From contig JAJYJJ010000016.1 in assembly GCA_021789595.1 (NCBI GenBank), positions 1-49,346 of the forward strand: DNA of 49,346 bases, in the 5' to 3' direction. Below are positions 4,264-7,564 of this stretch, piece by piece (within the stretch, counting starts at the first letter, position 1; every line of letters starts with the position of its first letter). Under the pieces are notes generated by a model. That model searched no databases. It saw only the letters and a list, made by a program, of their open reading frames with translations, and was not told the origin of the DNA. Position numbers and translations under genes: made by a program. Source of the stretch: Nitrospirota bacterium (GTDB taxonomy: Bacteria; Nitrospirota; Thermodesulfovibrionia; UBA6902; JAJYJJ01).

Positions 4264-4300
4264 GGGCTAACCTATTATGCTATTCCATTCTTGCAAATTT

Positions 4301-5119
4301 TTATTTCCCCTGATATTCTGCTTGCGGTAATCTACCAAATGTATGCCCGATCCTGCTCCATCTCATTCCATCAACCCCATATGAATACCAAACCTGGCGT
4401 GCTTTGCCTACGATATCCTTGAGCGGAATAAACCCGAACTTGCTGCTGTCTTCACTGTTCTGCTTATTGTCTCCAAGGACATAGGCAGCGCCATGAGGCA
4501 CGACGACTTCGCGTCCTCCTTCGAGTTTAATCACATCATCCGGCAGTCCTGCTATTCTCTTTATGTAAACCTTGCTCCTGTCATCAGGATATACAAAAAT
4601 TATGATATCACCTCTCTTTGGAGGCATCCGTCTGTATGCGGTTTTATCCACTAAAACCCTGTCACCCCTTAGGACTGCGGGCTCCATACTCTTTGTGGCT
4701 ATTTTGTAAACATGAATAATATTATCCCTCGTATAATTATATACAAAGCCGGTGATCAGCACGGATCCAAGCATCCATACCGCAATATAAAAGTACCAAC
4801 GGTTATAAGGTTTTAAAATATATTCACCATCTTGTTTATAAGGTTTTCTATATGCCTCGACAATAGAGAAAACATAGACCATTAATACTATTGCTAATGT
4901 AAGAGTAATTCCCACAATCAGGAACCTGTCCGGGAGATATACAGACAAACGAAAGCCAGTTGCAACGAGCACAATAAAGATTACAAAGAGGCTCATCCCC
5001 TTTAATATCTCCCCATTATATATCTGTCCCATCCCTGGCATAATCATGCCCATAATCGCTGCAATCCAACTCTTTCTTTTAAAGCTTTTTCCTTCCTGAT
5101 TCATCTCTGCCTCCATCAC
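4301..5119 (-). CDS. lepB: signal peptidase I with N-terminal multi-helix membrane domain
   Basis: A 272-residue protein. Residues 15-90 hold about three membrane helices starting with a PGMGQIYNGEILKG segment, like TM2/DUF5683-type domains. A further helix at 108-126 leads into the S26 peptidase domain. The catalytic Ser is S144 in ATKSMEPAVLRGD and the general base is K187 in VYIKRIAGLPDD. The late box AAYVLGDNKQNSEDS is also present. It should cut signal peptides at the outer face of the inner membrane. The extra N-terminal domain is not part of ordinary LepB. An ECF-type promoter lies 18 bases upstream of the start, matching the one before the sigma gene. ATG 5119 is used, and M6 is an alternative. 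Confidence 0.88.
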   Translation of the reverse strand: MMEAEMNQEGKSFKRKSWIAAIMGMIMPGMGQIYNGEILKGMSLFVIFIVLVATGFRLSVYLPDRFLIVGITLTLAIVLMVYVFSIVEAYRKPYKQDGEYILKPYNRWYFYIAVWMLGSVLITGFVYNYTRDNIIHVYKIATKSMEPAVLRGDRVLVDKTAYRRMPPKRGDIIIFVYPDDRSKVYIKRIAGLPDDVIKLEGGREVVVPHGAAYVLGDNKQNSEDSSKFGFIPLKDIVGKARQVWYSYGVDGMRWSRIGHTFGRLPQAEYQGK

Positions 5120-5136: not shown

Positions 5137-5163
5137 AATACGCATGGAATGGAGAAAGGTTCC
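5137..5163 (-). promoter_or_regulatory. ECF-type promoter of the signal peptidase gene
   Basis: On the minus strand, GGAACC (5163-5158), a 15-base spacer and CGTATT (5142-5137) lie just upstream of the signal peptidase start. GGAACC is a classic ECF -35 element. The same two hexamers with the same spacing precede the ECF sigma gene (5997-5971), so this gene is a probable direct target of that sigma factor. Confidence 0.7.
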
Positions 5164-5165
5164 AG

Positions 5166-5381
5166 CTATCTACACACGACCGGAGAAAAGACGGTAAAAT
5201 ACAGCCTGATGAGGTTTATTATCCCGAGTAACGCTCCGCCTGCAAACATCGCATAGCGTACTGCTATTGATGAATGAAGTTTTTGTGATAATGAAATTTC
5301 GGGTTTTTTTGTCTTTTCATAGGCATAGACTTTATTCATCACCCTGGATATAAAATCACCTGACGGTTTAAACTCTTTCAT
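5166..5381 (-). CDS. small single-helix membrane protein, possible anti-sigma partner
   Basis: A 71-residue protein with a soluble N-terminal half (MKEFKPSGDFISRVMNKVYA) and one membrane helix at about residues 40-60 (VRYAMFAGGALLGIINLIRL). The ATG at 5381 was chosen over one at 5396 because GGAGG lies eight bases upstream. It overlaps the 3' end of the ECF sigma gene by 14 bases and is therefore translationally coupled to it. That position and topology (cytoplasmic head, one helix) are typical of anti-sigma factors, but the head is very short and no zinc-binding anti-sigma motif (HxxxCxxC) is present. The anti-sigma role is therefore only inferred. Confidence 0.65.
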   Translation of the reverse strand: MKEFKPSGDFISRVMNKVYAYEKTKKPEISLSQKLHSSIAVRYAMFAGGALLGIINLIRLYFTVFSPVVCR

Positions 5382-5934
5382 AACCTTTACCTCCAAAATA
5401 TTCTTTAACTAACAGCTTCATCTTCTCCCTTGCCCTGAATAGCCTTGATTTTACGGTGCCGGGAGACACACCGTCCCGTACCGCTATCTCATCCAGAGAA
5501 TCTCCATTCAAACTCTGAAGAATGGTGCTCCTATATGGTTCCGGCAATTGTTCCATGGAAGCCTTTACCGCTTGCCATTTTTCCTTCTCGATTAAAGTCT
5601 CTTCCGCTGTTTTATCTTTAGCCCTGATGTCAGAGGTGGCATCTATCGGGACAATTTTCTTTCCCCGCCTTTTTCTTAGTTCGCTGATACAGTGGTTTCT
5701 GGCAGTAATAAAGAGCCATGCTGAAAAAGGGGTTCCTCTTTTTTCATCAAAGTCTTTCAGCGATTTATAGACGCTTAGAAAGATTTCCTGTCCTATGTCT
5801 TCCACGAGACCCTCGTCTTCTATAAGTCTGAATATAAAGTTAAGGAGATGCCTGTGATACTTCTCTACAAGAATAGAGAATGCCTCTGTATCTCCATTCT
5901 TAATCTGCTTTACGACATCGATGTCTTCCACCAA
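5368..5934 (-). CDS. ECF RNA polymerase sigma factor
   Basis: A 188-residue extracytoplasmic-function sigma-70. Region 2 spans about residues 20-90 (HRHLLNFIFRLIEDEGLVED and FSAWLFITARNHCISELRKR). A linker follows, then region 4 with its helix-turn-helix at about 130-175 (LPEPYRSTILQSLNGDSLDE and GVSPGTVKSRLFRAREKMK). It directs RNA polymerase to ECF promoters. The upstream sequence carries GGAACC-N15-CGTATT, repeated before the signal peptidase gene downstream, so it probably activates itself and that gene. A degenerate copy of codons for region 2 lies at 11741-11860. Confidence 0.92.
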   Translation of the reverse strand: MVEDIDVVKQIKNGDTEAFSILVEKYHRHLLNFIFRLIEDEGLVEDIGQEIFLSVYKSLKDFDEKRGTPFSAWLFITARNHCISELRKRRGKKIVPIDATSDIRAKDKTAEETLIEKEKWQAVKASMEQLPEPYRSTILQSLNGDSLDEIAVRDGVSPGTVKSRLFRAREKMKLLVKEYFGGKGYERV

Positions 5935-5970
5935 AAACTCCTCTGTATCTGAGTAGTCTGTCTAAAAACA

Positions 5971-5997
5971 AATACGCAGGTTCCATCAAAAGGTTCC
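5971..5997 (-). promoter_or_regulatory. autoregulated ECF-type promoter of the sigma gene
   Basis: Minus-strand GGAACC (5997-5992), 15-base spacer, CGTATT (5976-5971), about 37 bases upstream of the sigma start codon. Both hexamers and the spacer length match the element at 5163-5137. The adjacent bases (TTT after the -35, TG before the -10) are also shared. Confidence 0.7.
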
Positions 5998-6111: not shown

Positions 6112-6411
6112 TTACTTATCCCTATTCAATATAAGATCAACCATTGTCTTCCTCGGCTGGTTGAATAAATTCTTAACCCTCTCTCTGTACTCTTCAGGCG
6201 TGATATTTTCCTGATGTGTGCCGATTACAATCTTAATATTCGGGAATGCCTCTTCTAATGCTGCCTTATATTTTCCTTTAAACGGACAGAGCACCTTCAT
6301 GCAATATGTGAAATGAATGGCATCCACCCTGAATTCGGCAAGACAGCTTGCCGACGAGCAACCCAAATCCTGCGTTGCATTAGAGCAGGTAAGTATTCCA
6401 ATCCTTGCCAT
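6112..6411 (-). CDS. CGGC-domain protein with apparent internal deletion
   Basis: A 99-residue protein. The N-terminus ILTCSNATQDLGCSSASCLA and the later segment VDAIHFTYCMKVLCPFKGKY match the Cys-rich CGGC family (putative metal-binding proteins of anaerobes). From memory of the family, about 45 residues with a CxGCP motif should lie between CLAEFR and VDAIHF. Here the two are joined directly and in frame. The gene may therefore be a disabled or streamlined version. It is three bases downstream of the Fe-S protein gene and probably co-transcribed. A shorter piece of the same N-terminus lies at about 11880-11965. Confidence 0.65.
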   Translation of the reverse strand: MARIGILTCSNATQDLGCSSASCLAEFRVDAIHFTYCMKVLCPFKGKYKAALEEAFPNIKIVIGTHQENITPEEYRERVKNLFNQPRKTMVDLILNRDK

Positions 6412-7210: not shown

Positions 7211-7564
7211 ATGGACACAATAGAAAAACTGAAAATCCTCTCTGATGACTCGCAGTATGACCTTGCGTGTGCATGCGGCACGAACAAGGACGACCGCAGG
7301 AGGAGGGGGCTTGACGGCAAATGGCTTTACCCTGTCTCCCTGCCGCAGGGCGGATATTCAATACTTCTAAAAACACTTCTCTCTAATGCATGTTCAAATG
7401 ACTGCAAATACTGTCCACTGCGTTCAGAGACAAATGTTCGGCGATGCACGCTTCAGCCTGAAGAAGTGGCAAATATATTTATGGAATATGTGAGGAGGAA
7501 AAAAGTTTTTGGTCTGTTTTTGAATCAACTGTTGCATTTTAGGCAATATTGCCGATGTCCCTGA
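7211..7564 (+). pseudogene. N-terminal fragment of a putative DNA-modification/repair radical SAM protein
   Basis: About 105 codons match the start of the radical SAM family annotated as putative DNA modification/repair (TIGR03916-like): DTIEKLKILSDDSQYDLACA, the SLPQGGYSILLKTLLSNACS segment and the cluster motif CSNDCKYCPLR. Family members run to roughly 400 residues. Here the match ends at KVFGLFLN near 7520 and a foreign tail closes the frame. The downstream DNA carries a piece of another broken gene on the opposite strand. Lacking the barrel, it cannot be active. Confidence 0.75.

Follow-up and report, generated by a model that had tools for sequence, protein, structure and literature searches.

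A putative self-contained ECF sigma factor module with a signal peptidase-like component in Nitrospirota

Genetic organization of the cassette

The window, being the whole 49,346-nt stretch of Nitrospirota DNA that was analysed, harbors on its minus strand a cassette in which a promoter is followed by an ECF sigma factor gene, an overlapping gene for a 71-aa protein, a second promoter, and a signal peptidase (SPase) gene. The individual features are as follows:

5971 to 5997, minus strand: ECF-type promoter of the sigma factor gene, an exact match to GGAACC TTTTGATGGAACCTG CGTATT, located 39 nt upstream of the GTG start codon at 5931
5368 to 5931, minus strand: ECF sigma factor of 187 to 188 aa, with its GTG start at 5931 and a GGAG ribosome site upstream
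5166 to 5381, minus strand: 71-aa single-pass membrane protein, a putative anti-sigma factor, overlapping the end of the sigma factor gene by 14 nt
5137 to 5163, minus strand: ECF-type promoter of the SPase gene, an exact match to GGAACC TTTCTCCATTCCATG CGTATT, beginning 2 nt past the stop codon of the 71-aa protein gene and lying 32 nt before the SPase gene
4301 to 5104, minus strand: type I signal peptidase of 267 aa with an N-terminal multi-helix extension, an ATG start at 5104, and GGAGG upstream

A Pfam-type domain search of the sigma factor identified Sigma70_r2 (residues 22 to 90; 1.6e-17) and Sigma70_r4_2 (residues 122 to 172; 1.1e-10), and the closest solved structures include sigma-H, RpoE, and SigW. 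Its classification as an ECF sigma factor is based on the presence of regions 2 and 4 only, without region 3, on a length below approximately 200 aa, and on its own promoter, which displays a GGAAC-type -35 and a CGT-type -10 element in all eight cassettes compared below.

The product of the overlapping gene, for which a Pfam search returned no family, is composed of approximately 41 residues followed by a hydrophobic helix, with almost no periplasmic part; helices are predicted at residues 8 to 25 and 39 to 70 with moderate confidence, which is low at the C-terminal end. A position adjoining the sigma factor gene, a short cytoplasmic part, and a single membrane helix together give it the appearance of a class II-like anti-sigma factor. 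The protein is conserved in all eight cassettes, its mean pairwise identity being 0.62 in the N-terminal helix, 0.64 in the hydrophobic stretch, and 0.61 in the last 13 residues, as opposed to 0.29 in the linker. The coupling of a small membrane protein to the sigma factor, as proposed in an earlier note on this DNA, is supported, and the protein is probably a membrane anti-sigma factor, as judged from its sequence.

The window SPase matches Peptidase_S26 (3.3e-30) and scores above the TIGR02227 cut-off; a longer reading of its gene from GTG 5119 was considered less likely than that from ATG 5104. Its Ser139/Lys182 dyad is intact, both residues aligning with those of the solved E. coli-type SPase I, so that the enzyme may well be able to cut signal peptides. 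The AlphaFold model of this protein (mean pLDDT of 49) was unusable.

Two observations concern the surroundings of the module. The CGGC-domain gene upstream of it (window positions 6112 to 6411) seems to lack an internal portion when compared with the equivalent gene that precedes the module in the genome designated G134 (L081 4586 to 5020), and an ORF at positions 7211 to 7564, containing the cysteine stretch SNDCKYCPL, resembles a prematurely ending N-terminal fragment of a radical SAM protein.

The promoter pair and its conservation

Both promoters possess a 15-nt spacer and have in common a TTT following the -35 element and a TG preceding the -10 element; the matching ECF promoters with shared flanking bases and sensible spacing to their genes that were described in the earlier note are, therefore, present exactly as claimed. 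A terminator-like structure was sought between the 71-aa protein gene and the SPase gene and none was found; for this reason, the SPase gene is probably also reached by read-through, to which transcription from the internal second promoter probably adds.

Within the window, GGAACC-N15-CGTATT occurs twice, compared to 0.03 occurrences expected from shuffling. A scan of the 2.23-Mb genome, as the earlier note had recommended, returned only two exact matches, both at the cassette, although the count itself is at chance level, since a reversed control pattern gives three matches. With the shared TTT included, exact matches again number two in the genome; no sequence differs from the pattern at a single position, and two differ at two positions. 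Near-matches at other loci, with one or two mismatches, were rejected as regulon members, those inspected being located inside coding ORFs, and the genome-wide count was likewise discarded as evidence, as the control pattern matches as often. The earlier note had held that occurrence at chance frequency would speak against the promoter pair; that criterion alone would have discarded a true finding, for which conservation in other genomes provides the more suitable test.

Eight cassettes, all from Nitrospirota, were compared, namely those of the window and of the genomes designated G046, G293, G116, G134, G120 (a Nitrospirae MAG, JACRON010000141.1), G396, and G455. The motif precedes both the sigma factor gene and the SPase gene in every one of them, including the seven beyond the window, and all 16 sites fit GGAACY-TT-N13-CGTAYY with an invariant spacer of 15 nt. 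At the level of individual positions, GGAAC, TT, and CGTA are each found in 16/16 sites, position six is C or T, and the spacer sequence changes freely in the more distant genomes. When each region was shuffled 2,000 times, no shuffle was as good in most regions, the weakest result being that for the sigma factor gene promoter of G293 (21 of 2,000 shuffles). In five of the eight genomes, the relaxed pattern is confined to the two cassette sites, and each of the other three has one additional match, in each case inside a coding ORF; a third intergenic site was found in none of the eight. It is because of this placement and conservation (16/16 sites in eight cassettes, with no third intergenic site) that the promoter pair is taken as real, and, on comparative sequence grounds, the two promoters are almost certainly genuine and specific to this sigma factor. 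It is also highly likely, as far as strong-consensus sites are concerned, that the regulon is limited to the cassette locus. The sigma factor thus very probably activates few genes other than its own and that of the SPase, as anticipated by the earlier note, which had predicted a small regulon in which the factor induces its own gene and that of a signal peptidase.

The module is rare and patchy in its distribution. Among 396 sampled genomes of the phylum, the sigma factor orthologue and the 71-aa protein gene occur in exactly the same six genomes, while the 71-aa protein was present in only five of 231 genomes searched within the class; the motif travels only with this sigma factor gene, across different families of the phylum. 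Sigma factor genes at L036 and L038 (37% identity) were rejected as orthologues, their neighbor being a different, larger anti-sigma-like gene, as was a match in G086, where no cassette is present. No relative was found among viral contigs, and a plasmid search yielded only generic ECF factors of approximately 33% identity.

Several cassettes display individual irregularities. In G293 (L109, G293:C57:44400-46000, minus strand), approximately 185 nt resembling an inserted repeat (TGTCATTCCGGCAG...) separate the motif from the start codon of the sigma factor gene. The sigma factor of G120 (L039 1296 to 1817) lacks 14 residues through an in-frame deletion close to the N-terminus, corresponding to window residues 10 to 23, with a perfect promoter, and that of G046 (L035 1471 to 1809) shows an apparent frameshift after approximately 110 codons, which may be a sequencing error or real. 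On the 3.7-kb contig of G120, the cassette in its entirety lies between two copies of a direct repeat (GCAAGAATGGAATAGCAATGCCTTTTTGGTTGTGA; L039 1183 to 1218 and 2890 to 2925), an arrangement which suggests that the cassette moved or recombined, or that this short contig was misbinned; sequence related to the repeat lies after the window SPase gene, near position 4280.

Signal peptidase variation and a possible role in sensing

The N-terminal multi-helix extension is found on the cassette SPase in six genomes, while in G396 and G455 a canonical LepB-type SPase fills the slot behind the second promoter; that promoter, 71-aa protein gene, and SPase gene stay together while the SPase type changes represents good evidence of a functional link between them. 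The catalytic dyad is present in five of the eight cassettes (window, G046, G134, G396, and G455) and replaced in the other three, by Gly/Arg in G120, Tyr/Arg in G293, and Ala/Arg in G116, with no protein lacking only one of the two residues; half of the N-extended proteins are consequently dyad-less. The dyad-less genes have kept their full length and show low pairwise dN/dS (0.21 for window versus G120, and approximately 0.1 for window versus G293, where dS is near saturation), which argues for a retained function; a value for the SPase pair of G396 and G455 was set aside owing to a wrongly set reading frame. The SPases of the window and G120 are 91% identical, indicating that the loss in G120 is recent and separate from the others, and trees (FastTree) suggest that the dyad was lost at least twice and perhaps three times independently. 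It is possible that the loss in G120 reflects decay, given the short divergence and the 14-residue deletion in its sigma factor.

The C-terminus of the 71-aa protein, VFS-PVVCR in the window and V-F-S/A-P-V/A-V/I-C-R across members, resembles an SPase site. Positions -3 (V/A/L) and -1 (a small residue) fit such a site in most members, the -3 residue being Phe in G396 and G455, and Pro occupies +1 in seven of the eight cassettes (six of the seven aligned members), with Ala in G116. Proline at +1 blocks SPase cleavage (PMC5727409), and a Pro-blocked precursor interfered with the E. coli SPase in earlier work, as far as that work is cited in PMC5727409. Because a Pro directly after an SPase-like site stops cleavage, the tail could be a mock substrate, a suggestion drawn from pattern matching on eight sequences; a predicted helix reaching residue 70 would leave the site buried, the model being of low confidence there.

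Taken as a whole, the locus is best explained, with somewhat better than even confidence, as a self-contained ECF module in which the SPase-like protein also forms part of the sensor. The sigma factor would recognize GGAACY-TT-N13-CGTAYY and transcribe from two promoters only, the first producing the sigma factor and the 71-aa protein and the internal second one the SPase. The 71-aa protein would most likely tether the sigma factor at the membrane via its conserved N-terminal helix, and the SPase-like protein would be both induced product and part of the sensor, its substrate groove binding the tail of the 71-aa protein, which resembles a signal peptide but is blocked by proline. Once unprocessed precursors accumulated in excess and filled the groove, the 71-aa protein would be let go, and the freed sigma factor would direct synthesis of more SPase-like protein until balance returned; the window SPase, with its dyad, could cut as well as sense. 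These elements are not equally secure. That the SPase-like protein shares in sensing, beyond being an output, falls just short of an even chance on the sequence comparison, and release of the sigma factor through groove occupancy is distinctly speculative. Equally conjectural is the complete picture of an SPase occupancy sensor, in which the groove of a possibly catalytically dead SPase-like protein holds the proline-blocked mock signal peptide of a very small anti-sigma factor until precursor overload displaces it, thereby releasing a sigma factor that has the module as sole target. Groove-type sensing is also unusual for membrane anti-sigma factors that extend so little into the periplasm, a point which weighs against it.

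A simpler explanation is that of a secretion-stress regulon whose SPase is only the output, serving as an accessory enzyme when processing lags, with the 71-aa anti-sigma factor sensing something else. An intact dyad in the window, in G046 and G134, and in the LepB-type copies of G396 and G455 is in keeping with this, as is the presence of another SPase elsewhere in all seven genomes checked (the window's own, G046, G293, G116, G134, G120, and G396), so that the window copy could be an inducible reserve enzyme. However, three cassettes produce a dyad-less SPase from the same promoter, and signal-peptide removal cannot, therefore, be the conserved function in every lineage; moreover, so little of the 71-aa protein reaches into the periplasm that it could hardly detect another signal. 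This explanation is, on balance, possible but doubtful. The boosted signal-peptide removal envisaged by the earlier note is consequently only partly supported, being conceivable for the window but not general across the cassettes, and the envelope-stress response it proposed is a possible reading of the module.

Alternatively, the SPase might act as a site-1 protease with a cleavage point near VFS|PVVCR in the 71-aa anti-sigma factor; degradation would then be completed by an intramembrane protease, and SPase induction would provide positive feedback, as for RsiV and RsiP. There is precedent in the cleavage of RsiP by SipP after VQS (PMC8844934), and V-F-S of the window matches the V-x-S pattern, but the proline directly after the site blocks SPase, a cut would remove only four to five residues, and three partner SPases lack the catalytic dyad, all of which renders this role improbable. 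The existence of dyad-less versions disfavors both output-only and anti-sigma-cutting roles as a general rule and favors a binding partner, while the window's own SPase can be reconciled with any of the three. It is very improbable that a different cellular sigma factor uses these promoters, the neighborhood merely being a shared operon, for although the genome encodes two other ECF-like sigma factors, each followed by a gene reading like a conventional zinc-finger-type anti-sigma factor, the motif was looked for near both and is absent, and it accompanies the cassette sigma factor gene only.

The same start signal before a sigma factor gene and a protease gene in eight genomes points to a dedicated secretion control loop, whose strong-consensus regulon consists of the module and its SPase, the latter having been repeatedly swapped for a dyad-less look-alike or another SPase type. 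How bacteria gauge the speed of signal-peptide removal is poorly known, and a three-gene module makes such sensing testable in a laboratory host. In three genomes, an SPase-like protein without its cutting residues may sense instead of cut, which, if true, would mean that inactive relatives of signal peptidase can also serve in regulation.

Comparison with known systems

In layout and gene position, the 71-aa protein, whose sigma binding is putative, resembles class II anti-sigma factors of the CnrY type, in which a short cytoplasmic sigma-binding part precedes one membrane helix and whose gene adjoins that of the ECF sigma factor. Membrane anti-sigma factors of this class are mentioned in PMC7406223.

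A close parallel is sigmaP/RsiP/SipP of Bacillus thuringiensis, in which an ECF sigma factor and its membrane-bound anti-sigma partner likewise function in one pathway with a specific signal peptidase, SipP cutting RsiP at site 1 (PMC8844934). The V-x-S site of RsiP is echoed in the window tail; the cassette tail differs in carrying Pro after the site and in its near absence of a periplasmic domain, and half of the N-extended partners are dyad-less. RsiV of the Bacillus subtilis sigmaV system (PMC4183432 and PMC6066255) is also a membrane anti-sigma factor controlled through signal peptidase; its outer domain binds lysozyme, and the enzymes that cut it are the housekeeping SipS/SipT, whereas the SPase described here is cassette-encoded and itself under the sigma factor.

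Almost nothing had been known of responses to insufficient SPase activity (PMC5727409). AyrR-AyrA of Staphylococcus aureus is such a dedicated response, triggered by stable unprocessed precursors (PMC5727409), but comprises a repressor and a bypass system with no ECF sigma factor; a Cro/CI-type AyrR and a membrane AyrA are absent from the cassette, which instead encodes an ECF sigma factor together with the 71-aa protein, for which Pfam gave no match. SipA of Streptococcus pyogenes retains the SPase fold and peptide-binding cleft, has lost both Ser and Lys, and has been proposed to have a binding role (PMC4049620); it thereby resembles the G120, G293, and G116 proteins, and differs in acting in Gram-positive pilus assembly, with no link to a sigma factor. 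In a partial literature search, neither an ECF sigma factor with a regulon made up of its own gene and an SPase gene nor a module of this kind containing a dyad-less SPase came to light. Signal peptidases acting on membrane anti-sigma factors (RsiV and RsiP), a response to SPase shortage (AyrRA), and a dyad-less SPase relative (SipA) are, individually, already known.
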